A DNA stretch of 64,000 nucleotides, taken from Rhodamnia argentea. Taxonomy: Eukaryota; Streptophyta; Magnoliopsida; Myrtales; Myrtaceae. The stretch covers positions 9,725,501 to 9,789,500 of the forward strand of contig NC_063151.1 of the NCBI RefSeq assembly GCF_020921035.1. The letters are read 5' to 3'. The translations under genes were made by a program, and so were the position numbers. The notes beneath the pieces were generated by a model that was given only the letters and a program-made list of their open reading frames with translations, was not told the origin of the DNA and did no database searches. This document shows, piece after piece, positions 3,340-50,062 of this stretch. How positions within the stretch are numbered: position 1 is the first letter of the stretch; every line of letters begins with the position of its first letter.

Positions 3340-3385
3340 AAATGATGGGGACCTTTTCGACCAAAAAAAAAATGATGGGGACCTT
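3340..3385 (+). mobile_element. Micro-insertion: TTCGACC plus poly(A), 15-bp direct repeats
   Basis: The 15-mer AATGATGGGGACCTT occurs at 3341-3355 and again at 3371-3385. Between them (3356-3370) lies only TTCGACC followed by eight A. This has the structure of a retroposed insert with a target-site duplication, but with a body of only about seven bases. Confidence 0.7.
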
Positions 3386-6300
3386 AAGCCATCACGATGT
3401 TTTTTCCCACTTTGTTTTTTAATTTTTCATTTTAATTTTCATTTAATCTTTTCCTTTTTTTTTTGTCCTTTCTTTGATGAGAGATCTCGCCTGTGGATGA
3501 ATTAGGTATTGGATTTGGCATTATTCATTTATTTTTTTCAACCCAACTTGGAATTTAAAAAATTTCCAACCCCCTAAAAGAAAAAAAATTAATGAGAAGT
3601 TGCGGTTAAAAGGGTTTTTAGGTCATCTCTTTATGCCCAATTGGGCAAGAGAGATAATCTTCCACGCATTTCCTGCGCATTAACAGTGTTAATTAATTAT
3701 TGTTATAGCGTGATTTATTCTGAAGACATCGGGGGGTTAGAAGTTTATTTAAGATGTGAGAATTAAACAAGTGCAAGGGACATAAAACTTCATGAGAAAT
3801 TTCCCGTAATACAATCGCGTCATTCTTAACCGAGGAGAACATTGATTTTATGGGTAGTCCTCCAACTTCTGCACGGTATTCAATGTCGTTTTGAAACTTT
3901 TTTTATTCGATTTAGTCCTTCAAATTTTCAATTTTGTTCGATGGAGTTGTTCGGCCATATTCAACTTCATATCGTATGGATTCTGTTTATGTGAATTGAA
4001 ATTGAGATGCATTGTCGCATTATGTCCTTTTGTTTTGGGTCGGGAGAAATTTCCCTGCCCTTTTCTTTTTTTTCTCTATTCATCTTAATTGTTGTCGAAT
4101 AGCCGTGTGTAACCTAAATTCTAACCTGAGGTCAAGCTGGCCTCGGAATGAATGTTGTGCGCCGGGGGTATCAATAGTTCGATTAGGTTCAGTTTTTCAA
4201 GAAAATCGAACCAAATTGAACCATTAGGAGTGAAGCTTAAATCGAATAATTCCACGATGATATGGAGGATTGAGTAAATTTTAAATAATTGTTGTCTCCA
4301 TTTATCTTCATTGTTGTCGCACAACCGATTGTGAGGCATACTACCTTATGTGAAATTTAAATAATTCGGTGGCTAATCTAAATAACAAATAATTCGGAGA
4401 TGATATGGAGTATCGAGTAAAAGTTTATGAACTATTGTTACCTTCATCGATGAAAGAAAGCACCTAATGACGAGCTTGAAAAAGGAAAATGTATTAACAT
4501 GAAAGAATAAAGTACAATACAATCAAATCTATCGACCTAAGCCTCAGTTAATAACGAAGAAAATTTGAAGAATAAGACTTAGGGTCCGTTTATTTCGATT
4601 CAAAAAATATTCTTTCCAAAATGATTGCTTATATCGTTTTACATAGTTAGTTAATGAAAATTATTTTCAATATTAGCAAAATTTTATGTCTATTTTGTGA
4701 GCGAGGCAAGTATTATTTTTAGAAATATATTTTCTAAATCGTTGATATTCTGTGAAACAAGCGAATCCCTAAATTCGTTAATAATCATCGTTGGTAGCTG
4801 GGCCATTAATTTTAATATCTTAGTGGGACTTTCGGCTAAGTTCACTTTAGTATGGATTAATGATCAGAAGGCTTCGCCGCTCAAGTTAGTGGACCCCAGA
4901 TCAACGTGTGTACGGACTGTGCTGACGATAATGCCCTTGACCTTAAAAGGTAATTACGGTTCTCCTTTGTTTTTTTGGTCAAACATATCTCCATTTGAAA
5001 GCACTGAGCTGGATAGCAATTTTGACTCCACGGCTCTTCTCCTGCTTTCTTAGGCGGGCAAGCCAACGCAGCAGAAAAAATTGGCCAAGCGGGGATCCTC
5101 CATGTCCGGTACGATGACGCGTATAGTCAAATTTGGGAAGAAGAATAGCAAGAGTGTGATAATTTCCGACAAATTGCCGTACGTGAATTTTTTTATTATT
5201 ATTTTCATTTATTTTAGTGGATTTTTTTTTAATTTTTTAATTTTCTTTTGCTTTTTCTTTTAAAAAAAAAATTATCTTGCCGGTGCCATGTCAAATTTTC
5301 GTTATGCGTCAATGTCGGATTTTCGGTGAGGCAAGTCGTTGATAACATTCATATGATCGAATCTTAAATTTGTGGCATTTAAATGAGCGAAAAAAAAGTT
5401 ATTGCATTTAAGTGAGCAACGTACAAATGTTATGGCACAAATGTCATTGTTCTCCCTTAAATCTGAATTCGCCCAGAGAGGAGGGCCAAAATTCTTAAGC
5501 TAACTATAGTGTTAGGCCCCAACATTAGTCATGCGCCATGCGCCGATCAACACGAATGAGGCAAGATCGGTGAATATCCTTCCCGTCTGTCACGATCTTA
5601 GTTTTCAGTACAATTGGAACCTCAAAAGAATGAATTATGTAGTCCCGGAAGAGGTACACAAGTTTATAGTCAAAACTCTATTATGACACTCTAATCTAGT
5701 CCTATCCTAACTAGATATACCCCTACTTTTGCCATGCACTTTGATAAAGTCTTTTAAGAGATCATCGGAAGCGTTGATCCAAATGTCCCTAAGCTTCGAA
5801 CTTGATCAATTTGTAAAATATTTTGGGGTGAACGTAAACTCAGTAAGAGAAATCTCTAGGTTTAAGTAAGGAGATCTTCTCACCATTCAAACCCGTATCA
5901 AATACATAACGTGAATTCAAAACGAGTTTAAAATATTTGCATATACAAATGAGGGGGAACACATGCATTGACATTCTACTATGATATGCACAAGAAAATA
6001 CTCATGAATGTGATATAAATTATTCATTCAAATACAAGCATATGGCATATTATTCTATGATGCACAATTAGCACATGGCAACTTACCGATATGCACAACC
6101 TTACTTGTGTCTAGCCAAGACTCATCTCGACTAACAACATAACAATGCACCAATTCATGGGGGACGGAATCATAAAATCATCCATCCAAGCCATAGCACA
6201 TCCATCACGGGTTTTCTTTACGTTAGCAAGAATAAATACGCCATTGTACGCTCATGATGGTGATTATTGTAAACCAGCTACTCAAACCATATCGTGTATC

Positions 6301-7813
6301 TTGTATGTGAGTAACAAGCCCGTCACATATAGGAAATCATCGGACCTCGTGTCCCATCAACCCTGTAGAGACCATTTTTAAACGGTAGGTCGTGGCATAT
6401 AAGACATGTGCATGTCTCTTTTACACTATAACCATGCCGCAACTATTATAAAATTACCAAAGCATTCCCACTGTTAAATTAATTATGTAATTGTTTCTAA
6501 AACTAACTTAACCACATATTATCATAAGGCTTCAAGTTATGTGATCAACCCCCAGAATTTTCAGTTTTAGTTGGCGACAGATGACGGCGTCTCGACCCTT
6601 GCTGAATTGGGTTGAGGACCGCAACGCCCACCCCTAGGGCCGGCAACGGCCACATCTCCCTCGCTAGATCTGGATTGTGAAAGCTTGGCGGCCCTTGTTA
6701 GAACAGAAAAGAAAAAAGAAACAAATCACAAGAATTTTAAAAAAATTCAAAAATTTATAATAAAAAATATCTATGTCGGTGTTGGTCATACCATATAGGA
6801 CGATTGGCATCCACGTTAGCGATTTCCAACCAATTTGATAGGATGAACTCAATTGGCACAAATGCAAAAATATTTACGACTGATTTGCTATAAATGTAAT
6901 AGGTTTAAGACAATTTTTTATAATTTTCTCCACGTTTAACATTTTTAGAAAAAAATTAAAATACATTTAAAACAAAAAACTACATCCGGGGTCAGCGTTT
7001 GTGGGCGGTGCCCCAAATCCGGAGGGATCCAAGGTGCAAATTCTCCTATGAACTCATTAATTGTTGATAAAAAGGTTAATTTTAGTCAAATTTACTTTAA
7101 AATAATCCGATTTTTAAAGGGGTATCAAATAAGACAAGACCCGAGTGCAACCTTTCCCACTTGGGAAGGAGAAAGTGGGGAATTCGTTTTCCCACTTGGG
7201 AGACGCGTCGTCTATTAAATTGACGATCTGCGTGACAGTTTTGTTCAAAAGTCGCGGACATTTTTATATTTTTTTAAAAATAGAATTTCTACTTATTTTT
7301 TCTTTTTTCCTTCACCCGATGAGGGCAGGCAAGCCGTTGCTAAACTTGTGCGGGGTCACGGTCAACATGGCCTCGCGCATTGCCATTGCGACCCCAAAAT
7401 CGCTGATATAAATGTTGTTTATCTTACGTGGCATGACCAACACCGATGTCGACATTTTCAATATCTTTTTCTTATTTTTTCCTTCTATCGACAAGGGTAT
7501 GCAATCGCTTGCTGGCCCTGGGGAGGGTCGCAATCGAGATGGCTTCACACATGGCCATTGCGGCAAGCATCGATTATGTCATATAGAACGGTCAGTATTC
7601 ACATCAATAATTTCTAGTTAAAATTGATCATATGGATTCAATTGGTACAAATGCAACAAGTTTATGATTAAATTGACACAATTGAAAGGTTATGACTAAT
7701 TTGGCATCAATATGATAAATTTAGAATTTTTTAATACTTTTACCTTATAAATATAGGGAGCGAGTACTAGATGCACCCGGCTTATGCTAGCCCAGCTCAC
7801 ATTCACATATTCT

Positions 7814-7862
7814 AATGGTGTATGTAAAAGTTAGACCAACAAAAAAAAAATGGTGTATGTAA
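7814..7862 (+). mobile_element. Micro-insertion: TTAGACCAAC plus poly(A), 14-bp direct repeats
   Basis: The 14-mer AATGGTGTATGTAA occurs at 7814-7827 and at 7849-7862. The intervening sequence at 7828-7848 is a short stretch containing TTAGACCAAC and then an A run. The GACC motif next to poly(A) matches the other micro-insertions. Confidence 0.68.
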
Positions 7863-8821
7863 TTCGGCTCACATGTATCAAGCGTAATTAAAATTTTCTA
7901 TTAGAAAGGTCATTAAATTGTATGTTTATTTTGGGAATTCGATATCTTTAGGAAAAAAATACGTTAAAGTTCAAAAAATTAATTTTTGGAATTTTCTTTT
8001 CTGTTCGGACAAACACACCTCAATTTTTTATTTGTAATTTTGCGAAGACGAGACGGGCGATGGTTGCTCTTTCTGAGGGGCAACAAGAACTAAAGAAAGC
8101 GTTACTGTTCACATGCCACGTGGGAAATTTCTAGTTTTCATTTATGTTTCATATCTATTTATAGGCTTAAAATTTATTTGAGAAATTTCGAATTTTTGGG
8201 AATCTATTTTTTTTTATGTTTCTGTTTCCGGGAACAGAAATTCATTTGGTAAAACAATTTCATTTTTCTAGTTCTCGGATAATTTTTAAGCCCATAAATA
8301 GGTATGAAACAAAAATGAAATATATAAATTTTCTTCTTTTCTATTTCTAGAATAGAAACAAACATAAAAACTCCTCTCATCACCGTTGGTCCCCGACGGC
8401 CAACGGAGGAAGAAGGAAATCTGGCGACCATAAAAAAAGAGAAAAGAAATAAAAAATAAAAATTCATAAGACATAAAATTTTTTAAATAAAAATATAGAA
8501 GTGTCTTAGCAATATGAATAAGATTGGATATGAGTCGTTAGATTCTTATTTCGTTGAAATGAGTTAAAACGAGTTAAATGAGTCAACATGGGTTGGATCA
8601 TTTTCGATTCGACTTGATTCGACTCACTAGTTTGGCACCTCTACTCGCCGCCATTGTCGAACATCTCTCATCGCAACCATAGCTCTGGCTTTCGTCGTAA
8701 CCCTAGCCTTCGTCGCAATCGTAGAAATCTTGTCTTGCTATGAAATGAATTTATGTTATGGGAATAGAAATACGAGTTTCTCTGTTCAAAAACTCGTCCA
8801 TGAAAAAAAATATATATAATC

Positions 8822-8926
8822 CTAAAGTGAGTAAAAAAATGAACCAAATAACATTTGCATTTGGCCAAGAGGCTTTGGAGCCCCAATGCTCATTTGGAAT
8901 GCTGAACCAAATAGGGCCATACTATT
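8822..8926. mobile_element. About 100-bp terminal fragment of a 'GAACCAAATAGGGCC' element
   Basis: Present in copy 1 and absent from copy 2 of the flanking tandem duplication. It closely matches the right end of the larger element at 62747-63482: both contain CATTTGCATTTGG, GAGCCCC.ATGCTCATT and end GAACCAAATAGGGCC. This looks like a short or deleted member of that family. Confidence 0.6.
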
Positions 8927-9995
8927 CAAGAACAGAATGATTATCATTCGCGGCCTTATCTTCGTTGAGTCTCCTACCCGGCCTCGGGGATCCCCTCGCT
9001 TGGATCGAGAATGTTCGCATGTCTCGCTTAAAAGTTTGAAATTGACTTGTATACGTACGCGCCTTTCATTTGGAATCACACTCGAAAGTGTGGGCTCATG
9101 GAGTCCGAAGGCATCCATGGGCCCTGTTGCGTGGTTCAGATATCATTTCAAATAAGATCGGTTTCCCCTCATTCGATGTTTAGTGCAACATGAAGTGCGA
9201 ATATGTCCAGATACAATTTGAATATGATCTAGATCAAGAATCCCATCTACTGTCTTGTTATAATTAAAAATAAAGGGAAAAAAGATAAAAAAATGATTAC
9301 CAAAAAATTATAGTGGCTGTGGTCGCCATCTCAAATGTTACGGAAAAATGATCAAAAAAGTCCTAAACTTATTGTTTTTATACCAATTCAATCCTAAACT
9401 TTTCAATTGTGTCAATTCAGTCTTATATCTTTTGATAACTTACCAATTCAGTCTAAACCTTTCAATTATACTAATTTGGTCCTAAACCTTTCAAAATTTT
9501 ACCAACTTAGTCTTAAATCTTTTGAACTTTTGCCATTTTAGTCCTAAATCTATTATTTGAGTAATTAGCAAGAATAACTAAATTAATAATTCGTAAAAAG
9601 GTTTAGGACTAGTTTGGCAAATCATTAAAAGATTTATGACCAAATTGACATAATTGAAAAGTTTATGACTGAATTAACAAGTTGTCAAAATGTTTATGAT
9701 TGAATTGGCATAATTGAAAGGTCTACTCGTCGCCACCGTCGAACATCTCTCATCGCAATCGTAGCTTTGGCTTTCGTTGCAACCCTAGCCTTCGTCACAA
9801 TCATAGAAATTTTGTATTGTTATGAAATGAATTTCTGTTTCGGGAATAAAAATACGAGTTTCTCTATTCAGAAACTCGTCCATGAAATATAAATAAATAA
9901 AATCTAGTCCTAGCCATATTATTCAAGAATATAATGATTATCATTTGCATCCTTATCTTCGTCGGGTCTCCCGCTTGGCCTCGGGGGATCTCCTC

Positions 9996-10105
9996 ACTTG
10001 GATCGAGAATGTTTGCATGTCTTACTTAAAAGTTTGAAATTGACTTGTATACTTGGATCGAGAATGTTTGCATGTCTTACTTAAAAGTTTGAAATTGACT
10101 TGTAT
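9996..10105. repeat. Perfect 55-bp tandem repeat
   Basis: A 55-bp unit starting ACTTGGATCGAGAATG occupies 9996-10050 and is repeated without change at 10051-10105. The sister segment near 9000 has one copy, so the repeat arose after the larger duplication. Confidence 0.9.
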
Positions 10106-10392
10106 ACGTACGTGCCTTTCATTTGGAATCACACTCGAAAGTGTAGGCTCGTGGAGTTCGAAGGCATCCATGGGCCCTGTTTCATGGATTGGATATCATT
10201 TCAAATAACATCGGTTTCCCCTTATTCGGTGTTCAGTGCAACATGAAGTGCGAATATGTCCAGATACAATTCGAATATGATCTAGATCAAGAATCCCGTC
10301 TGCTATCTTGTTATAATTAAAAATAAAGGGAAAAAGAGATAAAAAGGATTACCAAAAAATTATAGTGTCTATGGTCGCCATCTCAAATGTTA

Positions 10393-10829
10393 CGGAAAAA
10401 TGATCAAAAAAGTCCTAAACTTATTACTTTTATGCCAATTCAATCATAAACTTTTCAATTGTGCTAATTCGGTCTCAAACATTTTGATAATTTACCAATT
10501 TAGTCTAAACCTTTCAATTATATTAATTTGGTCCTAAACCTTTTGAAATTTTACCAATTTAGTCCTAAATCTTTTGAACTTTTGCCATTTTACTCCTAAA
10601 TCTATTATTTGAGTAATTGCCAAGAAGAACTAAATTAATAATTTGTAAAAATGTTTATGATTAGTTTGACAAATCGTTAAAAGGTTTATGACCAAATTGA
10701 CATAATTGAAAGGTTTATGACTGAATTAGCAAGTTGTCAAAAAGTTTATGATTGAATTGACACAATTGAAATGTTTATGGTTAAATTGGCATAAAAATAA
10801 TAGACTTAGCACTTTTTTGGTAATTTTCC
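10393..10829. mobile_element. Inverted-repeat MITE, about 437 bp, with 10-bp TSD
   Basis: Long imperfect inverted repeats: the left arm reads AAAAAAGTCCTAAACTTATT and the right arm, reverse-complemented, AAAAAAGTGCTAAGTCTATT. Both arms continue with sub-repeats of the type 'ccaattcaatcataaacttttcaattgt'. Flanks are TCAAATGTTA (10383-10392) and TCAAGTGTTA (10830-10839), a 9/10 match consistent with the 9-10 bp TSD of Mutator-like MITEs. A truncated sister lies at about 9339-9721. No transposase is encoded. Confidence 0.68.
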
Positions 10830-10839
10830 TCAAGTGTTA

Positions 10840-11307: not shown

Positions 11308-11316
11308 AGAGGATAT

Positions 11317-11926: not shown

Positions 11927-12023
11927 AGAGGATATACAATGAAACTGGGCGCTCTAGCCAGAACTAATCCTATTTCGAGATGTTTTTTTTTTTTTTAACC
12001 CAAAACCATTTCTCTTTTGACTT

Positions 12024-12565: not shown

Positions 12566-13102
12566 GATTTATACTTCTTTCGGAACTCTTGTTAGGATCC
12601 TTGCTCGTGTCAGTATGGGGCTCTTGCATGGAATCTGTCATGGTGCTTTTGCTTATTCAACCTCGTTAGTTCCGGCAACAATTGGTATTTTCTTGCACCC
12701 ACCGTATTTTTTCTTTCTTTTTTGTTTTCTTTTGCTATGTGGACTTTGCCGCGTTTGGCGGTTTTGTTTTTATGGTGCAAAGGTTGGGCATATGATGGTT
12801 TACACTTGATCTCTGAACTCCAGGTAAGTTCACATGTTTGACAAGTTTATATGCTGATGCTTTGCGTCTTTGCACCTCGGTGAAGTTTTCATTTTGGATC
12901 ATTTCGCCACTTCTGTTTTGCTCGAATTTGTAGCAAACAGAGGAAGAAACATAGAAAACGTGTAACGGCTGGAATAGAGAAGGTTTGACCTATATTTCTT
13001 GTCTAGCAAGATCGTTTGAATGCTTAGGAAGGTTAGTCGTGGAATGGCTAAATGCTGTCTGGTGTGATGTTTTGAACATTTAGAGCAATTGAAAAGGCCA
13101 AC
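12566..13102. repeat. Upstream segment of the PPR gene, duplicated at 17880-18500
   Basis: This non-coding stretch between the leader and CDS of the PPR gene recurs at 17880-18500. Long shared runs include GGCATATGATGGTTTACACT and AGGTAAGTTCACATGTTTGA. It retains the unoccupied forms of two micro-insertions found in the other copy (empty sites near 12884-12910 and 13043-13062). Confidence 0.85.
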
Positions 13103-15352: not shown

Positions 15353-16214
15353 GTTTGCTCTTGGTTCTGGTGTGCCAGAACATGATTCTTTTTGCTTCTC
15401 AGGCATATTCTTGTCAATGGGAAGGAGATAATTGTACAGGTAATCATCTCGTAAATCTCTTCCTAAAAAACGCAACAATCCACAATCCTTTTAATCTTGC
15501 TATTATTTAGTCTAGCACCTCTTGCACAGTATACCTTCACAGTGCTTAAATATTCTGGCATGGTCGGGGACATCTTGAGAGATCAAATCAAGTACCGCGG
15601 GACGCAGGTCAAATCGGGGACATTGCAGCTTTTTTCTTTTTTTATTACCATGTGAATATTTTTTTTTTGGTAAGGACCATGTGAATATTTATCTTTGTTC
15701 ATGACATAAATATAATACACATCTCCATTTAGTTATTGTCATCACCTTTTTTTGGGTGATTTGGGTTTATATGCGTTATTCTAGACTCTTTTAGACAAGG
15801 TAAGGCAGAAAAAGAGTGAGAAGATGGTGAAGCACGCTCAACTAGCCTAAGTTGCATGCTGTTTTTTCCTTTGCTCACTCACAAGCGTGCGAATGTTTGT
15901 GGTGGTTTCTTTATCAGAGAGAAATGCGCAGGATGATTTTTCCTTTCCTTTCTTTTGAGCTTATACTCCACTGTTTATTCAAAGTCTATGTAACGTGATT
16001 TTTCGTTGGAGCTTGCTTTGGAACAAGTGGAATGCTGAGTGTAGAATAATTCTTCGTTCTCTTTTTGCCAGACATAAGTTGATTGGCAAACAGTGTGCTT
16101 GAGGCTATGAGGCTTGGAGTCAGAGGTGTTCGACAAAATTTGTCTTTCTTATCTAAAGAATTGTGGGTACGCCTCTTGTGTTCTTGTTTGGAAATATTCA
16201 CTAGTTCCCGTCGG
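15353..16214. other. PPR 3' flank and spacer
   Basis: Presumed 3'UTR followed by unassigned sequence. One micro-insertion lies at 15647-15690. No other gene was found. Confidence 0.5.
15647..15690 (-). mobile_element. Micro-insertion: CCTTACC plus poly(A) on the minus strand, 15-bp direct repeats
   Basis: The 15-mer ACCATGTGAATATTT is at 15647-15661 and 15676-15690. The 14 bases between (15662-15675) are seven T followed by GGTAAGG, which on the minus strand read CCTTACC then poly(A). Confidence 0.7.
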
Positions 16215-17720
16215 TCCCCAAATTGTTGTTTCTGGAAATGGACTTCAGATTCATTTTTCGGAGGTGATTTATTTTCTGCAAAACCATGTCCATCTGAACA
16301 AGAATCTTCTGCGCTAACTAATCCAACTGTTAGCGCACCTCTCTCCTCTGCTGTTACTTCAGTTTCTGGAAGCCAACCTTCTGTGAGGCCCAATGCACTG
16401 AATGCTTTTGCGAAGGTCATTCTCTATGCTTTCTTCTAGCAGTCATGTTCAGCGTCCCTATGTGCCTTCAAACCCACAAGAGCACATTCCATCTCTAGGT
16501 TATTCCTCATTCGCATTGCCTGGAACTTCAGTAATTCTTCTTCCAGTGATAATCAGCTTCCTTGGCCAAAGATGAAGCCATCTGATGTTAGAAAGTACAT
16601 GAAAGTATTTGTGGAAGTAGACATGGACAGAGATGGGAAGATTACTGGCTAGCAGGCTTGCAACTTATTTCTGAGTTGAGGCTACCAAGAGGTATCCGAG
16701 GGTAGGTGTGAGGTCCTTTCTCCACTTAGTCGTATAGTACTTTCCGTTAGTACAGTTTCCTTTAAATCGCTTTTATATGTTTAATACCATCATAGGCTGA
16801 GTTACTTGCCAAAGATTATGATGAGAAGTAGAAGCAAGATGCAAAGATAGCATCTAACTTAACAATAGAGGAGGCAACCATTCGTGAACACTAGGTAGTT
16901 TTTTTTGTTTTTTTCAGAGAACTTCAGGTAGTTTACTTACTGGGAATTCGGGGATATGGTGGTGGTTGCATCTCTATCCTGCGGAATAACCCAAACAAAT
17001 ATATAACGACGGCATTTTTGCCTTTGAATATTTTCCGCAAAAGCATACAAGTTTTCATGGTAAACATAAATGGTTGCTCCCTGACTTCTATATATTTCAA
17101 GTTTGCTTCTAAAGTACTTTATCTTATTGCCCTATCTGAAGGAAACAGGTTCAAGATCTTTACATATTTTATAATGCTTGTTAATAGATTCTCCAATATT
17201 TACTCTAGTCTGCCCATTTGTCCTTTCCCATTCTGATGAGATTCCTAATGCAATTTATATTTGTTTTTGTAGAATTCACCGTGATTGATTTGCTTTTCAT
17301 TGCATGTCGTCACAACTGTTTTCCCCCCTTTATGAATTTGTATACATGAGTACTTGTCCACATCGTTTCCCAGATTACATCTGTTGTTTCAGCTTCCTGC
17401 TTTAATTATTATCTGGCAAATGGCATTAATATGCAATTGTTCGTTTGACTTTTCTTTAAATTATCTTTTGTGGTTGAAGACTTTTCTTTAAAGGAAATGT
17501 CCTTTTCCCTTTCTGATTGCTGGAAATATTCTTTTGTGGTGTTTCTACTTATGTTCTCTTTTGTGGTGTTCGATATATTTTATCTTTAATGAGATCTTTT
17601 ATATTAATTAGTAAGGTTTTCACTTGCTACAAGCTGCCCCCAAGAAACTCCCCAAAATTGTCATCCTCTCTCTGGGAGTGTGCGTGCGCGCTGTCTGAAG
17701 CTCTCATTCTCACTGGTTAG
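16215..17720 (+). pseudogene. Partial, broken copy of the EH1/Pan1-like gene
   Basis: Two blocks match the intact gene downstream. 16215-16700 corresponds to exon 2 at about 21407-21905 (phrases FFGGDLFSAKP, SSALTNPTVSAPLSSA, KITG). About 16707-17720 corresponds to 25442-26220 (exon 7 and flanking introns). The 3.5 kb between these blocks in the parent is deleted. Introns are kept, so this is a DNA-level duplicate and not a processed copy. It is disabled by TAG stops at 16650-16652 and 16829-16831, a frameshift near 16410-16445, and loss of the start, the first EH domain and the C-terminus. Confidence 0.9.
16886..16933 (-). mobile_element. Micro-insertion within the EH pseudogene, empty site in the parent gene
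   Basis: Two versions of a 15-mer (GAACACTAGGTAGTT at 16886-16900, GAACTTCAGGTAGTT at 16919-16933) flank an 18-bp insert (16901-16918) that on the minus strand reads TCTGAAAAAAACAAAAAA. The intact gene has a single GAACTTCAGGTAGTT at 25624-25638, the pre-insertion state. The first repeat has drifted at three positions, and the GACC motif is absent here. Confidence 0.55.
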
Positions 17721-18230
17721 CAGATTTATGAACATGTGGATACAGACTTATAGTCGATGCCAGTGCATCTATGTTTCTGAGCTGTATTATACGCTAATCT
17801 CTGTTTACCTTTCCTTGTGGTGTTCTTTAGTTTCAGTATGATCCGATAGTTTAGGTTAATTGAAGTCGATTTCTTCTGTGATTTATATATATTTTTGACT
17901 CGTGTTAGGTCCAGTTGTCTCATGTACAAGGATTGTTGCTGTGTCGGTATCAGGCTCTAGCACGTAATCTATCTAGTGCTTTCAATTATTGAACTTGTTA
18001 GTTCTGGCAACAATTGGTATTTTCTTGCATTCATCATGTTACTTCTTTTCTGTTTTCTATAGCTATGTGGACTTTTCTGCGTTCCTGAATTTATCAGCAA
18101 TTTTTTTTTTCTTATGGTGCAAAGATTGGGCATATGATGGTTTACACTTGATCTCTGAACTTCAGGTAAGTTCACATGTTTGACAAGTTTACATGCTGAT
18201 GCTTTGCGTCTTTGCACCATTGTAAGAAGT

Positions 18231-18278
18231 TCATATGGTCAATTTTTTTTTCTTTTGGGTCAAATCATAAGGTCATTT
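18231..18278 (-). mobile_element. Micro-insertion: TTTGACCC plus A-rich tail on the minus strand
   Basis: Flanked by TCATATGGTCAATT (18231-18244) and TCATAAGGTCATTT (18265-18278), an imperfect repeat. The insert ends TTTTGGGTCAAA, so on the minus strand it reads TTTGACCC followed by an A-rich tract. The sister copy at about 12884-12910 has no insert and a single 'tcattttggatcattt'. Confidence 0.62.
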
Positions 18279-18417: not shown

Positions 18418-18456
18418 AAAGGCTAAATGTTTTTCGGGCGACAAAGGCTAAATGTT
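18418..18456 (-). mobile_element. Micro-insertion of 11 bp, 14-bp direct repeats
   Basis: AAAGGCTAAATGTT is at 18418-18431 and 18443-18456. The 11 bases between read GTCGCCCGAAA on the minus strand. The sister copy has one 'aatggctaaatgctgtc' at about 13043-13059. The insert has only a very short A tail. Confidence 0.55.
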
Positions 18457-20070: not shown

Positions 20071-23000
20071 ATGGCGGGGAGCATGGAGCAATTCGAGGCT
20101 TACTTCAGGAGAGCGGATTTGGACGGGGATGGCAGGATCAGCGGGGCTGAAGCCGTCGCCTTCTTCCAAGGATCCAACTTGCCGAAGCACGTCCTTGCTC
20201 AGGTTACTCACTCCTCTGTGTCTTCGCTGTGTTGTGTGGTCTACTGGATTTCTCCCGTTCTGGTCGGTTCTTAGTTCATTGTTGCGATCACTTCTTTCGG
20301 GAGTCTTGGTGATGGCCTTTTTTCTTATTTGTGTAAGTAGGTGGATTAGAAGACGAATCTGACTGGTCGAGGTGAAACTCCAGTTTCGTTTGATTCGAAT
20401 CACTGTAATTGGACCTGGATTGTCTGGTCGATAAATCTGCGAACTTTCGTGTTAATGCTGGAACTTAGTTGATTGAGGATTGGACAACCTAGCAGTGAGG
20501 GATTGTGAGCTTGTTAGGTTATGGGTGTTTCCTTTAAGTCCGATGATTAAAGTTCGCTCGGTCTTCTTCTGTGCCAATTACTAGATTGTATTACTGAAAA
20601 TACACTCAATTTCTGGAGATTTCATGATACGCATTTGAAACGAGGCAGTCAGGGATCCATCTATGTTTTGATTCACAAGTCAAGAACGAGGTTCCTTTCT
20701 TTGTTTACCCGTTCTGCCCGAGTTAGTGCTGATTGTTTGATTTTTCCAATACTTAGTTGTTAGTATTATTAGCTGGCATTTGTCTGTCGAGGAACTCATT
20801 GAGCTTTGCATTGATGCTAATGGAAACGCATTGTGATGTTACCATTGCCACAGATATGGATGCATGCTGATCAGGCCCATACTGGCTTCCTTGGTCGGGC
20901 TGAATTTTACAATGCTCTGAAGCTTGTCACGGTAGCACAGAGTAAAAGGGAATTAACAGCAGATATAGTCAAGGCTGCCCTGTATGGCCCTGCTGCTGCT
21001 AAAATACCCCCTCCACAAATCAATCTTTCTGCCATACCTGCACCACATGGGAGCACTACAGCTGTTGCAGCAACCCCGCCGATGAGAGCGACAGCTCAAC
21101 CAGCATCTCCGAGTTTTGGCTTTGGATTTCCTTCACAACAACAACAACAACCTGTTAGACCGCCTCAACCTATGCCTGCTCCTACTGCTTTCCGTGCGCC
21201 GCAGGCAAATGCAGGTTCACAATTTCCCATGGGGAGTAGTTTAGCGGGTCCTGGTGTTCCAAACACAAACATGTCAAGTGATTGGACCGGTGGAAGGAGC
21301 GGTGGAGTGTCAGTTGGATCCAGAGATACTAATTCCTCGGTTCTATCAGCTTTATCGAAACCACAGACTCTACCTTCTTTATCTCCACAGGCAGTGGCCA
21401 GTGATTCTAAAGCAGTAGTTGTTCCTGGAAATGGATCTTCTCCAGATTCTTTTTTTGGAGGTGATTTATTCTCTGCAAAACCCTCTCCATCCAAACAAGA
21501 ATCTTCTGCACTAACTAATCCCACTGTCAGCGCACCTCTGTCCTCTGCTATAACTCCTGTTTCTGGAGGCCAACCTTCTGTGAAGCCCAATGCACTGGAT
21601 GCTTTGCAGACTTCATTCTCTGAGCTTTCTTCTAGTAGTCAGGTTCAGCGTCCTCCTATGCCTTCGAACCCACGAGAGCAGGTTCCATCGCTAGGTTCTT
21701 CCTCATTCGCATCGCCTGGAATTTCAGTTGTGGTAGCTAATTCTTCTTCCAGTGATAATCAGCTTAATTGGCCAAAGATGAAGCCATCTGATGTTCAAAA
21801 ATACACGAAGGTTTTTATGGAAGTAGACACAGACAGAGATGGGAAGATTACTGGCGAGCAGGCTCGCAACTTATTTCTGAGTTGGAGGCTGCCAAGAGGT
21901 AAACTATTTCACATATTGCATTTTCTGTGTTGGTTTGTCTTGTTGGTCTTGATTTGCTAGTTTTGGTGCCTATGATGATGTCGTGTTGGATGTTCCATAT
22001 GATGTTGTGCCTCCATATGTATGGTGATACCATCAAAGTGTCTTTCATGTTTTACAACCAAAACAAGAGCCTGAAAGGTGTTGCTATCTGCAAGGGAACA
22101 CCCACATGGAATATGAGAAAATGATACCTGATGTTTAGCCGACTAGACAAAAAGAAATATGCAGAAAAAGAAAAGAAATTTATGACATTTGAAATATGAA
22201 CGTACCTTTGATGTTTACCTCAGATTTTGGTAATGTTCAATGTATGCTCTCTCTCAATCTCTTCTCTCTACTCTTGTTGCATTAGTTTTCTTAGGAGGCA
22301 GAATTCATGGGGTAGTGTTGACTTTCCTCTTGCTAAATCTCTATAATGTCCAATCTTGCTGCTCTCCCTAATTTTCCAAAGAATTGTTTCCTTGCTGAAA
22401 TCATTGAATCCCTTTGTCCATGGTGGAACTATGGAATACGCCATGATACCATCAAATCCCTCGGTCTTATGACAATATGAACCCTAACGTGGTTGGGCCC
22501 TCAGGAAACTACATTTTGGTAGTTGAGTCTGTTTTTTTTTTTTTTTTGGGTCAAAATAGTTGAGTCTGTTGGTTAGTCATTTGTACGCCTTTTTTTTCTT
22601 TCCTTCTCCTTTATTTCTTAATTATTATTTTGAATATGAAAGCAAAAGGTTAAATTGAATAGTACTTGTCCCCTTCCCCTTTTCTCCTGTTTCATCACAC
22701 AGGTATATTCGTATATGTTACTCCATCATGTTAGGCAGCATGATCATGCGTCTGTTAGTCATCATGTGAATCAGCATGATCACTAAAGGCTGTATCTGTT
22801 GCTTAAGTGCAAGTATAAGCTTAAGACCGATGCTGCATAACATCGTTATTAGTTAAAAGCTTAAAGTTGTTCACACCCTTGCTTTGTCGATGTTCGTTAT
22901 ATATCAACCACTATTTCTCGAGGAAGGTCAGTCGCAGTTGTTATCCTTTTAGTTGAACGCAGGCAAAACGTCAAGTTAGAGAACACGTTTTTATAAACTA

Positions 23001-26000
23001 TCATCAGCTTTGCATTCATAGAAATCTTAATGCATGCTTTTTGCACTAAGATCTTGTATAAGCTCCATGAATTATGATGCTTCTTTTTGGATTCTGATTG
23101 TCTTGTATCATCTATATGATATGTGATCTCCTTGTGGTGACAGAGGTTTTAAAGCAGGTGTGGGACTTGTCTGATCAGGATAGTGACAGCATGCTCTCTT
23201 TGAGGGAGTTTTGCTTTGCCCTGTATATGATGGAGCGACATAGGGAGGGTCGTCCTCTTCCCACAGCTCTTCCTAGTAATGTCATGTACGATGAAACGCT
23301 ATTGTCAATGACTGGTTTACCAAATGTTGCTTATGGGAATGCTGCTTGGGGTGCCAGTTCGGGTATTGTCCACATTTTCCTTGTTTTAGAGATGGTCCTT
23401 TCTTGGACAAGGCATGCGATGATAAAGTGTTTGGTGGCTTCTATATTAGGTTTTAGGCCACAGCAAGGAATGCCAGGTGCTCGACCATTGGGTCCTGCAA
23501 CTGGCTTGAGGCCAGGAATGCAGGTTCCTACCCCTAAGGCAGACGCTGTGAAGCAAACAAATCAACACGACTTGAGAGGACCAGCTTTAGGGGATCCATT
23601 TGCAAATGTAGTTGGCAACATTGAACAAAATTCAGTTGGTTCAGCACCTCAAGAGGTAGCAACTGGGGAGAAAAAGGCATACACATTATTTCTTGATGCT
23701 CTTATCATCTTTTTTTCTTCTTTTTTTACCTTTGCCGAATGCCTGTGTTTTCTTTTGTGTTTTGACACGTGTCTTCATTTTTATATTCTTACTTTAAGTA
23801 TGGGATGTTGCTGAAACATTGAAGGCCAAATGAGATGTTGCTGGATGTGTTCAAATAATCTAGATTCTTTTCTAGACACTCTTCCAGAAGGAAAGATGTT
23901 TTGTTGAATGTCTGTCCTTTTTCAGTCTCTTCTAAATGTTCTGCTTTTGATATGGCTTACACAAAGTAGAGCGCGAGATAACAGATCCCATAATTATTGT
24001 TGACGTAAGAATACATGCATCATATTTTAATTTCTCCATAATGCCAATAGATTTTTCTGGATAAAGCAAATGTAATCTTATAAAACTATGCTGCTCAAAT
24101 AAACTTATATGCTTGTGCTTATCTTTAATTCACTTTTGGTTGAAAGGATTATGACGTGATATCGAAATATTGTTTATGCGTCTTTTTATTTCCTTCTGTC
24201 ATTTAAGTTCTTTTCAGATTTGAATTGATATGGCCATTTGTTTTTCTTTCGAAGTAAAAGGAATACTCTTTCCCGATGGCAGGTGGAAGAAAAGAAGAAA
24301 GTGATATTGGATTCAAAGGAGAAGATTGAGTTTTACCGTACAAAAATGCAAGACCTTGTGAGTATTTTCTGTTCATATTTTGCTAATGAGGTGGAGAAAT
24401 TGATGGGCTTAATGTTTTGAAATAATGCAGAGGTTTAGCATTGTTAGTTCTATATTTGCCCCAGTAGAAGATTTGCCTGGTATTGACTTTATATTTTTGA
24501 ATTACACGTAGTTTATTATATCTTGTGTGGTTGAGTGAACTTGAAGACAGAAGCCTGGAACACAGTGGATTTTTTTATCTCTACAGTTTTCTTTATACCA
24601 AAAATCATTTTACATGCATCATAAGACAAATGGCTGGTGTAATATTACATGAACTCATCTTAAGCAAGAAAGAACATTTTTGAAATCTTATGGTTGCATG
24701 TTGTTTGTCCAGCTTGTCCTGATTTGTTTGCCTATCATGAGTAGGGTGCTGGCAAAATATGATATTTAATGCAAATACTGTGGGAAAAGCCTTGCTGTCA
24801 CAGATTTTGTGGGCATCATTTCCCCTTGTTCCAGAGTACATTTTGACACCATACGTGGTCATTAAATTGATAAGTGATAAAGAAAGGACACAAATTTAAG
24901 GTCTCGATGTAAAGGAGGATCTGCTTTTGGTCTCCATATCCTGTTTGCAGCTTTGCTGTGGACACAGATCCCTGTTTCTGTTGCGGCCGTTCTGTGTGAT
25001 GAGGTCCCAACGTTAGCAAAACACTTTGCACTAAGCTATCTGGACACTTTATTTGATAAGAACATTACAATTCACTTAGCCAATGTTCTGTTACCGATTT
25101 TATATACGGAATTTTTTTTTGGGTCGAATATATCTGGAATTTTTTTTTTTTGGTCTAATATATGCGGACACCATACTTCGAATATATCCGGAAATTCAGA
25201 GGTCAAGTTTTTGCATGTTTTGGTTGGCAAAAAATGATTGCTTGCATGTGCTGCAAAGTTCATGGTGCTTCTTGAGCTTCTGAGCTCTATTTTTACATAG
25301 TTTTTCTTTATTTTGTCTTCCCTTTTATTTTGTTCCTATGCGTTCTCTTGCTGATGTTTGCTCTTCATTCCTCAGGTTTTATTTAAAAGCAGATGTGATA
25401 ATAAACTGAATGAGATCACAGAAAGGGCATCTGCAGATAAGCGTGAGGTACTTCCTCCACTCAGTTGTACACTACTTTCCTTTATTATTGTTTCTTTGAA
25501 TCGATTTAATTTGTTCTATTTGAGTAACTTTGTAGGCTGAGTTACTTGGCAAAAAGTACGAAGAGAAGTACAAGCAAGTCGCAGAAATAGCATCGAAGTT
25601 AACCATCGAGGAGGCAACCTTTCGTGAACTTCAGGTAGTTTACTTCTGAGAATTGGGAATGCTTCTAAAGTAAATTTATAAGCCCTCTCTAACCTACGAA
25701 TTCGCCAATTATGAGTTGGGAGCTCTTTTTTCTCTTAGCCTTTGTTTGGCAAGCTGCTGTAAGTTTTCGATGAGATCTAGGAAACGGGTTCAAGATCTTT
25801 GCGTATTATATAATTTTTTAAAAGAGATGCTCTAATCTTTACTCTAATCTGCCGACATGTCCTTTGCCATTCTGATAAGATTTCTAATCCAATTAATATA
25901 TGGTTTGTAGAATTGACTGTGATTGATTTATTCTTTAGTGCATGTAGGCCCAAATGTTTCCCCCCTGTGGTAATATGTATTCGTGACTACTTGTCCCCAT

Positions 26001-29400: not shown

Positions 29401-30084
29401 CTGGCCATTTCTGTCCTGTTTGTCACAAAATGTTCCTCGTCTTTTTTCCCCAGGGCTTTGCCCCTTTAGCTTGTTATGTATGCCATTTTTTTTTTAATGT
29501 TTTTCTCATGCTGTATAGCAGGAAAACAGAGCTGGGTTTTTGTAATGTGATTCAATGTGGCCTTGTCTTTTCGTAGGGACGATGTATTCATTATTGTAGG
29601 ATGCCGAGACGAGAAGAGAGATTGCTTTCCTTTCGCGTGTCTAATACTGATTATATGGACTCTTGTGATATACATATTCCAATTTGTCTGCGGTCGCTAC
29701 CTGACTTGGTGCGGACTGGCTCTGTTTTGTCGAGCTTCATGCATCCTTCCTGCTTACAGTTATTTGCGCTTGCTGGTGGACTGAGCATCTGGAATATCCT
29801 TCTTTGTATAAATGTCAACTACATATGAACTAATTTAGAAAAAGAAAATAGTTTTTAACCGGCGGAAATCTAATGAAAATGTGATTGTTTTCCTGTACCC
29901 GATATAGGATATTGGATAGCATTGACAGTTTTAGTAACATAATTGATGACATTCTAATTTTCGTTTGTTTCCGACCAAATTTTTTTTTTTTCGTTTGTTA
30001 TCTCTCCCATCGAATAAATTAGGTTGTCCTTTCTTTAATTGACTCATCGAGTGAATTACTCATTTAGTGAATATTTGACTTTGA
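29401..30084. other. EH 3'UTR and spacer
   Basis: Presumed 3'UTR to about 29830, then AT-rich sequence. A micro-insertion lies at 29957-29999. Open frames at 29557-29828 have no supporting motif. Confidence 0.45.
29957..29999 (+). mobile_element. Micro-insertion: TCCGACCA, direct repeats with T-run slippage
   Basis: AATTTTCGTTTGTT at about 29957-29969 is followed by TCCGACCA, then A residues, and then AATTTT(T)nCGTTTGTT ending at 29999. The duplicate target differs only by an expanded T run. The core CCGACCA matches the other inserts. Confidence 0.55.
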
Positions 30085-45356: not shown

Positions 45357-47081
45357 TCACAAATAGACCACGGCCAGAGACTTGGTCACGCAAGATGATG
45401 CATCGAGTTCATGAGCCATCTGATTCCTTGATATATGACGCCAGTTGGGGCCCTTTTCTGACACGTCACACATTGTCATGAAATCCAACACCTGACCAAA
45501 TATCTTGAACATTTCGACCCCAAATATGGAGTTCCTATCGGCCACAAATGTGGCGTTCCAATCCATTGGAGCATCGGGATGTACAGACACCTCACTCCAA
45601 TCAAGATACATGAGATCTAACTCCCACAATTTTCTCACAGCCTTATTTCTCCTGCCGATTTGACCATTTCCCTCGCACCAAGACACTGAGAGCATAAAAA
45701 GCCGACCATCACAAGAAACAAGTTTTGGGTAATACTCATGAACACGTGGAGGAAATGGGCTAGTCTGCATCCCAATCCAATATCCCCTCTCTATGTCATA
45801 TCCTGCAAGCTTGTCACTCTCCGAATATACATAAAAAATGCCATTACAAACAGTTCCAGAGCAAACAATCCCAAAATCTGGTGGCAGCTTCTGGATTTCT
45901 GTCCACTTATTAGATACAGAGTCGTATATTTCTCCAGAATCTAATGGCTCGTCCCATGAGCCAAGCCCTCCTACAGCAATAACCACGAACCTTCTAGAGC
46001 TCTTTGTGCTTGATTCATCAATCTTTTGCCTGACCATCTTGTGTGGTTTTCTAGCAGAAAAAAACGACAAATCATTCTCGTCAAAAGTGTTTCTGGGTTG
46101 ACGTCTTAGAGAAAGCCTGTGAGGATCCTCATAAACATCCGATCCACCACCCATCCTTGACCTGTTAAAACGCCTCTCTTGCCGGATTTGATGGCCCTGA
46201 ATCGCTGAAAAATCTGGATGGACCTCAGAAGCTCCTAAGATAGGCATAGACCGGGCATACTTCATTGAAGCAATTTTACGCCAAGATTTAGTCAATGGAC
46301 TGAAAACCAAGGCTCCTTTGTGTGTCTTGAATGAGCTTCTGTCCACTCTGCCGAAATTGGTCAAGCTAGAGCAACCCCCTACAACATATACATCTTCCAG
46401 GATATTGGCAACAGAAAACATGAACCTTCCTTTTAGCATATCAGCTTCTATCTTGTGCCATTGATCCTGATACACATCCAGCGCATGTATTTCGGCAGAG
46501 CAATAGCCATCTTTCACTGCACCAAACAAGAACAGCCATGGATTATGGTGCAAGCCTTCTCGTCTCATCTGAAGGAAGCGCGAAGTAGAAGTCAAGTTTC
46601 TCCATTTCTTGCACACAAGGCGTGCATTCATGAGGCTGGTTAGTGGCAGCCTCACCAAGCACATCTCTAGAATATCATCTGGAAGAAAAATGTGCATTCT
46701 GCTGTTATAGGTTGATTCTTCAAGTTCTAAATCCTTTCTGGTATTTTTCTTCCAAAATCTCTCTTTTACTCCATATGAGAAGCAGTCCACTCCAGTTTCT
46801 TCGGTACCGCATATGGTACCATATCCTCTGCTTTCTTCACCGGCACTCGACCTTCTCCTACTACTTGGGTCCCCATATTCCTCGCCTGTGTCAGCACCCA
46901 CCTTGCAACCTCCCCCTCTGCCATATAAAGTTAGACATCTCATTGAAACCCTTCTAACATTATCGTCTTCATCTTCACTTTTGAGGCTCTTTTTCCTCCA
47001 TTTGTGACTGACACTCCTCATGAGACGTTTCGATACACTCAAGGCCTCAAAATCTTGACGCAAATAGTTTTCGTCTGCCAT
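45357..47081 (-). CDS. F-box/kelch-repeat protein, CFK1-like (At5g42350 type)
   Basis: Single-exon coding frame of 574 residues on the minus strand. F-box proteins are substrate receptors of SCF ubiquitin ligases. A basic N-terminal region (about 1-60, including HKWRKKSLKSEDEDD) precedes the F-box at about 130-172 (LPDDILEMCLVRLPL, ARLVCKKWRNLTSTSRFL). Kelch-like blades follow: NILEDVYVVGG, GALVFSPLTKSWRKIASM, VVIAVGGLGSWDEPLDSGEI, KWTEIQKLP, FYVYSESDKLAGYDIE. The closest family I recall is the COP9-interacting F-box kelch pair of Arabidopsis. The start follows CTGAGTAG, an in-frame stop, so ATG 47081 is firm. A 5'UTR intron is likely. Confidence 0.88.
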   Translation of the reverse strand: MADENYLRQDFEALSVSKRLMRSVSHKWRKKSLKSEDEDDNVRRVSMRCLTLYGRGGGCKVGADTGEEYGDPSSRRRSSAGEESRGYGTICGTEETGVDCFSYGVKERFWKKNTRKDLELEESTYNSRMHIFLPDDILEMCLVRLPLTSLMNARLVCKKWRNLTSTSRFLQMRREGLHHNPWLFLFGAVKDGYCSAEIHALDVYQDQWHKIEADMLKGRFMFSVANILEDVYVVGGCSSLTNFGRVDRSSFKTHKGALVFSPLTKSWRKIASMKYARSMPILGASEVHPDFSAIQGHQIRQERRFNRSRMGGGSDVYEDPHRLSLRRQPRNTFDENDLSFFSARKPHKMVRQKIDESSTKSSRRFVVIAVGGLGSWDEPLDSGEIYDSVSNKWTEIQKLPPDFGIVCSGTVCNGIFYVYSESDKLAGYDIERGYWIGMQTSPFPPRVHEYYPKLVSCDGRLFMLSVSWCEGNGQIGRRNKAVRKLWELDLMYLDWSEVSVHPDAPMDWNATFVADRNSIFGVEMFKIFGQVLDFMTMCDVSEKGPNWRHISRNQMAHELDASSCVTKSLAVVYL

Positions 47082-47708
47082 CTACTCAGCATGCTGATCT
47101 CCAGATGTTTTGCAGGTCCAAGCAATCATCGTCTCGCTGTATCACATTATGATCCATTCATGTTATAAGATCTACCCCCATCCAAAGCAAAGCACGAAGG
47201 AATTAAGCTGAGAAAGAAATACTTTAAACAATCTATCATAGCCACAGTCACGGGGGAGAACAAATCATATCAGCCTCGAGAATGCAGCAACCACAGACAC
47301 CTCACACTGCATAAACAACTTTGAAAACTATACACACTCAAAGCTCGGGTGATGAAATAACTTATGTTAGTATGAGATCACCGCGGCCATTAACCCAAAA
47401 ATGACAACAACAGTTCAAATTCTTCATCCTTTCATAGCTAATTTTGATTTTTTTTGGGTCCCAGCAACTAGATGACCTCATTAATTGCTGCCCATGAAAA
47501 AAAAAATATGAATTTCAACACAAAGCAAGAAGAGGGAATGCAGGAACAAACTTTCCATAAACACCACCAAAAACCAGATCCGCAGATCCATCCGAACAAA
47601 GCTACGAATCAAACCCAACTCACACGGAGAACGTTCAAATCCACGCTGACATGTCCAAATAAAAAAGTTTACGGTCACAAGCAACGAGAACCCAAAGAAC
47701 AAGGGAAT

Positions 47709-47710
<2 letters not shown>

Positions 47711-47740
<30 letters not shown>
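47711..47740. repeat. (AG)15 microsatellite
   Basis: Thirty bases of perfect AG repeat within the presumed leader intron of the F-box gene. Confidence 0.92.
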
Positions 47741-47743
<3 letters not shown>

Positions 47744-47870
47744 GGATCACAACGACAAGAGGCCTAAGAGCGATTCCTCAGACAAGATCGAGCCCCATCA
47801 GACTCTTCAAAAACTTCAAAAAATCACCTGAAAGAGACGTTGCTCGAGAAACCCAGATGGGGAAATCCCT

Positions 47871-47905
47871 GGGGAGCATCAGGAGATGATGAAAAGCTTC
47901 CATCA
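47871..47905. repeat. 35-bp exact duplicate, copy A
   Basis: GGGGAGCATCAGGAGATGAT and the following 15 bases are repeated exactly at 49158-49192, about 1.3 kb away, without similarity outside the match. Confidence 0.9.
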
Positions 47906-49157
47906 AAGGCCCTTGCTTTTGAGAGAGGACCGAGAAGGTGGGGAAGTGGGTGTGTGGGAAGTTCTTAAATGGGAAAGTCTTTCAGAGAGAGAGAGAGACT
48001 GTCAATCTCTAACCTCGAGCTTTTACTTAATCCAAACAAAATTTGGGTGGGTCGGAGGAGTGGGAATTTAGTAAAGCGACGCAGCATCGCTGCTCTAAAA
48101 CGACCCCTCACCCCCCCCATTTTGTTGGTAATGGTGAAAATTTAATTTCTTCCTTCCTCTGTTAGAATCCAAGATACCCGGTAAGTACGTGTACTCGCGT
48201 GTTTACATTTGAGTAAAGGTGAAGGTATCGCGATTCTGTCATCGAAGGTCCGCCCATCCTTTGATCATTCTATGGGTTCGAATTATTGGTTCTCTTTTTG
48301 CGGCGGTCGATTTCTTCTCACTAAAATGGCTTTCGAATTTTTGTTTTTTTTCTTAATCCTAATCTTGCGGTGGACCCATTTTCACACCGATTCTTAAAAA
48401 TTTGAAATACCCGAAAGGGGAAATGTTTTCAAAGAAATTCTCGAATTTCCTCGTAGAACCTAAATGTAGGATTTAGGAACTATTTGCCGTGCATACAATC
48501 CGATTGAGGTTAGGTTAAAGGATTTTATAATTGATAGACATTTTGAGGCTTAGAATAAAATATACATCAAAATCACCTCCTTCGTATTTACAAGTCAAGA
48601 ACCGAAATATTTTGATTGGAAAATCCTTTGGGAAAGGTTGTAATGTCGATTTAGGGTAGGCTCGATAAAGGCCATATTTCAAAATAAGGGGGTGTGAAGA
48701 GTTGGTGATTACTTTTGCATCATTATCCACCGTCCCATCTACCGGGGATATATTTGCAATATTTCAGAATTATATCCATGCTCACTCACTTTCTTAAACT
48801 AATGAAACCTGCTCTTTTCTCTCATCTTGCTATGGCAATTTTTCTCTTGCCCCCTCCATGTGGCTTTTTCAATGCTCACAAGGCCGCTTTAGATCTCGTG
48901 ATTTTTTGGCAAAGGGCCTTGGCCTTGCTTTTTACCATGCACTATGCTTTTGCTTGCTCTTGAACTCAAATTTTTTATTACCGTTTGACTCATTCTTCAT
49001 CTCGAGCTTTAAAGTTTCGTAACATACAAAATATCGATCCGCAACTTTGCTATACAATTTTATTTATAATTTTCTTAGATACTGGAATAATATCCTCAAT
49101 TCCCATGGGAAAGTACAAGAAGTTTTTCGCTTTTGCTTAAGGATAATTAAGCGGGCC

Positions 49158-49192
49158 GGGGAGCATCAGGAGATGATGAAAAGCTTCCATCA
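49158..49192. repeat. 35-bp exact duplicate, copy B
   Basis: Identical to 47871-47905 over 35 bases; flanks differ immediately on both sides. Confidence 0.9.
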
Positions 49193-50014
49193 GAAGTGAG
49201 CAGAGCAATTTAGCACGTGCCGGCCTGCTGCACGTGCGAGGTGGGAGCGGGGGAGAAAAGCGGAATGCACCTGACCGGGAGTGGCGGAAAAATGAATTTC
49301 TTTTCTTTTGGGGGGGTTGGTTTTAAGAAATGGCGGAGGTAGTGGGGCCCACCGCCTGATTTCAGTCCTGGAGGTGATTATTACTCAATAAAACACATTT
49401 ATTTTGCTGTCCAGCCCACTTCAAAGTTGAGTGTGGTGGTTGGTTGGCATTTAGCACCTCTCTTTCTTTTCTTTTTTTTCGTGAAAGAACAAATGGGTTT
49501 TTCTTTTTCTTTTCTTTTCCTTTTTAGCGAAAAAAAAGGCGAAATTCCTATTAAGAAGTGGATGATAATTTCAATTTCTCACCTCGTGAGATTGGATAAC
49601 ATGAATCCGTATAATTTGTTCGAGGGGTAAAAAAAAAAAGTACCGTATGAAAGTACGTTTGTTTGAAGGAAAACTATTTTTCAGGAATTCATTTTTCGAT
49701 TTTTCGATATTTGGATGATGGGAAATAGATCTATGCACAGAAGAAGTGTTTCATAAGCTGAAAATACCAACTTTAGATTTTGAAAAAACACGACTTCCAT
49801 TTATGTCATCCAAATACCGAAAGTTTCGGAAAATTAGATTTATGGAAAATAGTCGTCCTTCGAACGAACGAAATCGATTGGCGAGACATCATAGGAAAAG
49901 CGAAGGGAGGAACACCGTCCACTAAAAAAAGAAGAAGGTAAATTCATATACTACTGTGTCGTATCGAGGGGCGACGAGATGACTTCCTAATCGGTAGAGT
50001 TATCATATTATTAA

Positions 50015-50062
50015 TCTCGGGTCATTTTTCCAACCAAAAAAAAAAAAATTCTCGGGTCATTT
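50015..50062 (+). mobile_element. Micro-insertion: TTCCAACC plus poly(A), 13-bp direct repeats
   Basis: TCTCGGGTCATTT is at 50015-50027 and 50050-50062. The insert (50028-50049) reads TTCCAACC followed by about thirteen A and a T. AACC plus poly(A) matches the general pattern. Confidence 0.65.

Follow-up and report, generated by a model that had tools for sequence, protein, structure and literature searches.

The accessible part of Ohshima (2013, PMC3747384) describes plant long interspersed nuclear elements (LINEs) of the L1 clade with poly(A) ends, as well as poly(A)-ended plant short interspersed nuclear elements (SINEs), which are thought to be moved by L1-clade LINEs and share only the poly(A) with them. 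It also describes the monocot 1a/LINE1-1_ZM lineage of L1 elements, which has a conserved 3' hairpin and for which stringent recognition of the RNA is presumed. That part of the paper describes no inserts of the shortness or fixed length reported below. We analysed a 64,000-nt stretch of the Rhodamnia argentea genome (C2:9725501-9789500, the whole of which is called the window; the genome comprises 346.7 Mb in 74 contigs), in which an initial annotation had noticed tiny inserts between short direct repeats. The inserts follow one layout, consisting of a target repeat, four variable letters (NNNN) plus ACC (sometimes ACCC or ACCCC), poly(A), and a second copy of the repeat. The observation was confirmed; the insert class is real and genome-wide. 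Its unusual feature is that truncation is not random: the stop lies at a fixed 7-9 nt from the tail.

The sequence examined consisted of the window and 110 further loci (L001-L110; 299,210 letters besides the window) from this single genome. L001-L020 (200 kb) were chosen by position only, and most other loci were chosen by pattern. A scan of the kind proposed in the initial annotation required a repeat of at least 10 letters (at most one mismatch if at least 13), 2-8 nt, ACC with 2-5 C residues, and at least six A residues. It identified four sites in the window and three in 200 kb of arbitrarily chosen other loci. No sites were found in either sequence when reversed, in 100 Markov shuffles of the window or in 20 shuffles of the other loci, and replacing ACC with other trinucleotides yielded one additional site (CAC, in the other loci). 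A second test started from ACC(n) followed directly by at least seven A residues and required the target repeat to adjoin the 4-nt head. This repeat was present at 69 of 129 sites in the window and the 110 loci, compared to 0, 0, 1, 0, 2, 0, 0, 1, 0 and 1 sites in ten sets in which the downstream flanks were swapped between sites. A stricter repeat test was passed by 60 of the 129 sites versus 0.0 in the control. These numbers bear out the earlier proposal of retroposition with LINE-type target duplications. Among the position-picked loci, 7 of 17 ACC(n)-A7+ sites passed the abutting-repeat test, which extrapolates to a rough figure of ~12,000 inserts genome-wide. The corresponding value for the window, which was picked because the inserts had been noticed there, was 5 of 13 ACC-A7 sites.

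Genome-wide counts were obtained with exact patterns on both strands, and the same pattern read backwards served as the control. TTCGACC-A10 gave the highest exact count among the heads (1101 matches versus 8 backwards), while CCTTACC-A10 gave 1001 versus 3 and TTTGACCC-A10 gave 280 versus 3; the excess over the backwards controls reached 334-fold. Degenerate patterns were also enriched, with 6889 versus 1000 matches for YNNNACC-A10, 3475 versus 453 for ACCC-A10, and 7290 versus 2000 for YNNNBCC-A10, many of whose listed positions are shared with the ACCC list. Because the same-composition word YNNNCAC-A10 gave 2162 matches versus 1197 backwards, the background of this control is about a factor of two. 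The class starting with a purine (RNNNACC-A10; 2577 versus 1168) hardly exceeds that background. The genome-wide counts leave no room for the two outcomes that the initial annotation had set against its own proposal, a lack of enrichment and a lack of ACC preference, and the recurrent 3' motif that it had seen beside poly(A) stands. Match positions were taken from the first ~100 matches listed per pattern, nearly all of them on contig C1. Pattern matches are not all inserts, as a head-abutting repeat was present at 22 of 30 TTCGACC loci, 11 of 20 TTTGACCC loci and 20 of 40 other YNNNACC loci.

The sites in the window are as follows.

3340..3385, plus strand: TTCGACC-A(n) insert between perfect 16-bp target repeats (16/16), at 3340-3355 and 3370-3385.
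7814..7862, plus strand: AAGTTAGACCAAC-A(n) insert between perfect 14-bp repeats (14/14), with a 13-nt body that ends ACCAAC and is above the usual length.
15647..15690, minus strand: CCTTACC-A(n) insert between perfect 15-bp repeats (15/15), its 7 nt identical to a LINE 3' end.
18231..18278, minus strand: TTTGACCC-AAAAG-A(n) insert between imperfect repeats, with a G interrupting the A run.
22520..22570, minus strand: TTTTGACCC-A(n) insert between perfect 14-bp repeats (14/14).
25101..25168, minus strand: two inserts in succession, TTCGACCC-A and TTAGACC-A, with imperfect repeats.
29957..29999, plus strand: doubtful member, with a direct repeat around TCCGACC followed by AAA and then a T run, without poly(A).
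50015..50062, plus strand: TTCCAACC-A13 insert between perfect 13-bp repeats (13/13).

In eight of the eleven inserts of the initial annotation, an ACC-type body and an A run lie between direct repeats. The remaining three do not fit the layout, namely the doubtful member at 29957, a site at 16886 with a 9-bp repeat and no ACC, and a site at 18418-18456 that differs from the class in having no A run in its 11-nt insert, although a perfect 14-bp direct repeat starting AAA flanks it. At 25101-25168 an older tandem sequence may account for part of the repetition, and it could be argued that all of these sites are old tandem repeats, or A runs that have direct repeats on both sides by chance. Moreover, a generic test of the window that allowed any body gave only a moderate excess, with 6 repeats of at least 9 around A runs versus 2 in the reversed sequence and a mean of 1.41 in permuted sequence, this being the weaker test. 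However, the swapped-flank, reversed and shuffled controls are near zero and the pattern counts rise as far as the 334-fold excess given above. For the class as a whole the chance or tandem-repeat explanation is refuted, and we assign it a probability close to nil.

The head before ACC typically has four letters irrespective of the number of C residues that follow. The repeat ended exactly 4 nt before ACC at 29 sites, whereas offsets of 0-3 nt were found at 0, 2, 3 and 6 sites, and offsets of 5-12 nt at 7, 6, 1, 2, 1, 1, 1 and 0 sites. When bodies of up to 700 nt were allowed, the body measured 5-13 nt in 20 of 32 finds, most often 7-9 nt, and a permuted control gave four finds; the TTCGACC pattern had been used to select many of these loci. 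The spread of lengths expected of 5'-truncated LINE copies was not seen; instead, the boundary is strongly concentrated 4 nt before ACC. The drastic 5' truncation proposed in the initial annotation is too loose a term for so sharp a boundary.

Several features of the inserts are those of LINE products, including flanking direct target repeats, poly(A) adjoining the 3' repeat, and a T-rich nick site on the bottom strand. Of 56 sites confidently flanked by repeats, some ten of them without ACC, 47 have repeats of 13-19 bp. The repeats start with AA (83% and 82%), and in 78% a pyrimidine (C or T) precedes them (n = 56). The resulting Y|AA target sites look like those of a LINE endonuclease nick followed by poly(A) priming. 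SINEs are 100 nt or more in length and have an internal Pol III promoter or a body derived from tRNA, 5S or 7SL RNA, and the repeat-flanked bodies, mostly 7-9 nt, do not place the inserts among them. Close series of inserts were observed at L068, at window positions 25101-25168, at C1:7902561 and 7902588, and at C1:3967012-3967184, where four different heads lie inside 173 bp. The serial inserts appear as if new copies had landed in the A runs of older copies.

Heads with perfect target repeats include CCTT, TTCG, TTTG, TATG, CTCG, CTCA and TCCG. Perfect repeats of 14-18 bp were found for CCTTACC, CTTTACC, TATGACC, CTCGACC, TTCTCAACC and TTTCCGACC; these heads therefore appear to come from separate sources and not to be mutated copies of one. 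On this evidence we rejected a single source RNA, which the initial annotation had suggested. The mean mismatch between the two repeats of a pair was 0.029 for CCTT (8 sites), 0.090 for TTCG (25 sites) and 0.090 for TTTG (16 sites). Judged by this low mismatch at few sites, the CCTTACC inserts look younger. Copying of the heads from flanking DNA was also rejected, as a head occurred in its own flank in 22 cases versus 24.4 in shuffled sequence, and its reverse complement in 30 versus 28.7.

An all-against-all comparison of the upstream stretches revealed no family common to ACC-A sites, with the exception of the LINE tails described below. Eleven sites had some similarity elsewhere in the examined DNA, none of it recurring. 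These included the satellite-like L011, a local duplication in the window, matches of L005 to L013 and of L048 to L001, and two TTCGACC sites, L024 (to L033 at 70%) and L041 (within itself). Longer multi-copy bodies ending in ACC-A were rejected, as none of these eleven recurs among the TTCGACC sites. At L031 (~1435-1535) a 56-nt body ending TTCGACC-A10 lies between 17-bp near-perfect repeats. It was considered as a trace of a longer parent and rejected, being single copy genome-wide at E-values up to 0.1; the body may reflect a template jump to another RNA.

A parent was sought among LINEs by a search for the zf-RVT family, a domain of plant L1-type LINEs. Of 907 candidates, 150 were scored, and 16 of these lie in open frames of at least 1,200 codons. 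The 3' end of one LINE group is present in L002 as an insert whose target repeats are of the same type as those of the tiny inserts. Five of 41 matches to this LINE end terminate 574-591 nt downstream of scored zf-RVT hits. The terminal letters of the L002 insert are TTTTAC, not CCTTACC. Five CCTTACC-A10 sites lie no more than 3 kb from one of the 13 zf-RVT hits scored on C1, at distances of 544, 556, 1630, 2777 and 2784 nt. All five are downstream and on the same strand, and none was found upstream or on the opposite strand. In a placement test run after the first pairs had been spotted by eye, random placement gave at least two sites within 1 kb in 0.0002 of trials and at least four within 3 kb in 0 of 20,000. 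The two largest distances, 2777 and 2784 nt, belong to the LINE hits at C1:34003518 and C1:23941477; being so nearly equal, they point to a LINE form whose 3' part is longer.

At L109 and L086, two CCTTACC sites that have no target repeats, the sequence outside the seven letters aligns to the L002 LINE end over ~60 nt (z = 6.4 and 5.2), while the best score of any other site against any of three LINE ends was 2.8 (128 sites). The match between L086 and L109 is weaker, with 3 of 500 shuffles scoring equally high. CTTA precedes CCTTACC in both L109 and L086, and we therefore take this LINE to end CTTACCTTACC-A(n), the tiny inserts corresponding to its last seven letters. The nine CCTTACC sites in L071-L110 comprise six repeat-flanked 7-mers, these two LINE tails, and one unclear case (L079). 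Taken together, the genome counts, the downstream placement and the alignment to the LINE end support the 3' end of an L1-type LINE group as the probable parent of the CCTTACC head, for which the LINE 3'-end origin suggested in the initial annotation holds.

Additional candidates were considered for other heads. A TCCGACC site 2816 nt downstream of another LINE is only a lead. A LINE of the other zf-RVT type is unproven as a parent, as the one YNNNBCC-A10 site that pointed to it is absent from the listed ACCC-A matches. This site is the following.

C1:3861148-3861164, minus strand: YNNNBCC-A10 match; the LINE zf-RVT hit, of the 294-nt type, lies 791 nt upstream of it.

A constant ACC-A preceded by variable letters could also be derived from tRNA tails, with ACC-A as the NCCA end of a tRNA that has discriminator A, and NNNN as the end of the acceptor stem. 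We consider this origin extremely improbable. CCTTACC is a LINE end, and a tRNA acceptor strand paired to a 5' G would end in C, which none of the recurrent heads CCTT, TTCG, TTGG and TATG does. ARAGORN identified no tRNA genes in L001-L050 or the window, a weak result given its bacterial settings.

The explanation that we favour, and consider rather likely as a whole, is target-primed reverse transcription by an L1-type LINE that ends at a set point near the tail. The LINE machinery would nick the bottom strand at Y|AA, and the freed T-rich end would prime on the poly(A) tail that follows the terminal NNNNACC(C) of a LINE RNA. Reverse transcription would then copy this tail and the last 7-9 nt, with a set end point 4 nt before ACC. 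Joining of the cDNA end to the target would leave the target repeats of mostly 13-19 bp. We infer that the LINE's own enzyme performs the insertion, and that the heads other than CCTTACC are the 3' ends of further LINE lineages. The interpretation offered in the initial annotation is partly supported; its alternative, a very short RNA as template, may yet apply.

Two accounts of the set point were weighed. In the first, copying of a full-length RNA would be blocked, for instance by a protein or enzyme bound to its 3' region. In the second, the template would be a LINE RNA that had been cut beforehand, 7-9 nt from its tail, whether by a nuclease, by decay halted at a tail-bound protein or by self-cleavage, such that the enzyme runs off a real 5' end and the inserts are full copies of a stub RNA. 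A 5' boundary that is sharply preferred across many heads would be expected of such a run-off, and 8 of 17 sites with 1-2 extra nt before the head carry T only. Moreover, the extra letter at L090 is T where the LINE copies L109 and L086 have A, which suggests an untemplated letter, as at a run-off end, and letters of this kind speak rather for the second account. However, untemplated letters can also arise at a block, and L090 may derive from another LINE subgroup. We tentatively read the end point as a block on full-length RNA and regard the pre-cut template as an unlikely, albeit serious, alternative. A stop at the base of a hairpin was rejected, as the folding of three LINE tails gave it no support. 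In the predicted folds of the last 60 nt of L109 and L086, an upstream GGU is paired with the ACC letters at the end; neither fold is significant. It is also possible, and here our opinion is tentative, that a programmed stub rather than a LINE copy is the usual product of an L1-type LINE group in this plant. The LINE enzyme, or a host defence acting on its RNA, would end the copy 4 nt before the conserved ACC, giving rise to about ten thousand 7-nt insertions from several successive LINE lineages.

Several observations weigh against the proposal of target-primed copying of LINE RNA with a fixed stop. An abutting repeat is missing from 60 of the 129 ACC-A sites, and a few repeat-flanked bodies are C-rich and lie outside the class (L012 and L044; TCCACCCCCACCCCC and TCCGCGCCCCCCCG); these C-rich bodies before an A run are perhaps a related yet different kind of insert. 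Folding of the three LINE tails yielded no significant hairpin, either in the last 60 nt (z = -1.64, 0.17 and -1.41) or in the last 50 nt (z = -0.03, -1.17 and -1.4). Three of the five CCTTACC sites near LINEs lie beyond the 574-591 nt tail distance of the L002 LINE group, which only those at 544 and 556 nt fit, and the three farther sites may be something else. The LINE survey covers the 150 scored candidates out of 907, and within it a parent of TTCGACC was not found; none of the eight C1 LINE hits inside the listed range has TTCGACC within 3 kb downstream. This lack of a LINE beside TTCGACC in the tested part, and the lack of a common longer upstream sequence among the TTCGACC sites examined, would be consistent with several dedicated, very short polyadenylated RNAs that are not LINEs and use the LINE machinery in trans, SINE-like RNAs consisting of a head and a tail. 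We consider such RNAs improbable, as CCTTACC is the end of a LINE group and a 7-nt body is too small for an internal promoter, such that each source would need an external one.

Other features of the window include coding regions of PPR, U-box, ARM and F-box/Kelch type. Two strong plus-strand copies of the small nucleolar RNA snoR101, which belongs to a plant family, lie ~5.3 kb apart (12797-12861 and 18139-18203), and arrays of ~29-31-bp units resembling CCAATTTAGTCCTAAACCTTTT occupy 9440-10794 in both orientations.

Keyword searches of the open-access literature found no such class in titles and abstract openings, which is weak evidence of absence as subscription journals were mostly outside the search. 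Elements of 7 nt would be nearly invisible to repeat-finding tools and would pass as small indels or microsatellite noise. If the usual product is indeed a programmed stub, the inserts would be the shortest class of retroposon and would preserve in the genome a trace of retrotransposition that failed or was blocked. A fixed stop would expose the first steps of LINE copying, i.e. start, tail, stop and joining, in sequence alone, and thousands of datable insertion sites would provide a way to ask whether the LINE enzyme, the RNA or the host sets the stop.

Compared to the poly(A)-ended plant SINEs in the accessible part of PMC3747384, the inserts are likewise short and non-coding, with poly(A), target repeats and a dependence on LINEs that is probable in our case, but they have neither promoter nor body and consist of 7 nt. 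With the monocot 1a/LINE1-1_ZM lineage, as that part describes it, they share a short conserved element that adjoins the tail and is common to LINE families; here, however, the conserved part is ACC(C) itself, and the three LINE tails are without a significant hairpin. The 5'-truncated insertions of L1-clade LINEs have in common with the inserts the poly(A), target repeats that begin with AA and are mostly 13-19 bp long and, for one head, an L1-type 3' end. Whereas those insertions have a spread of lengths, the inserts described here have one strongly preferred body of 7-9 nt.

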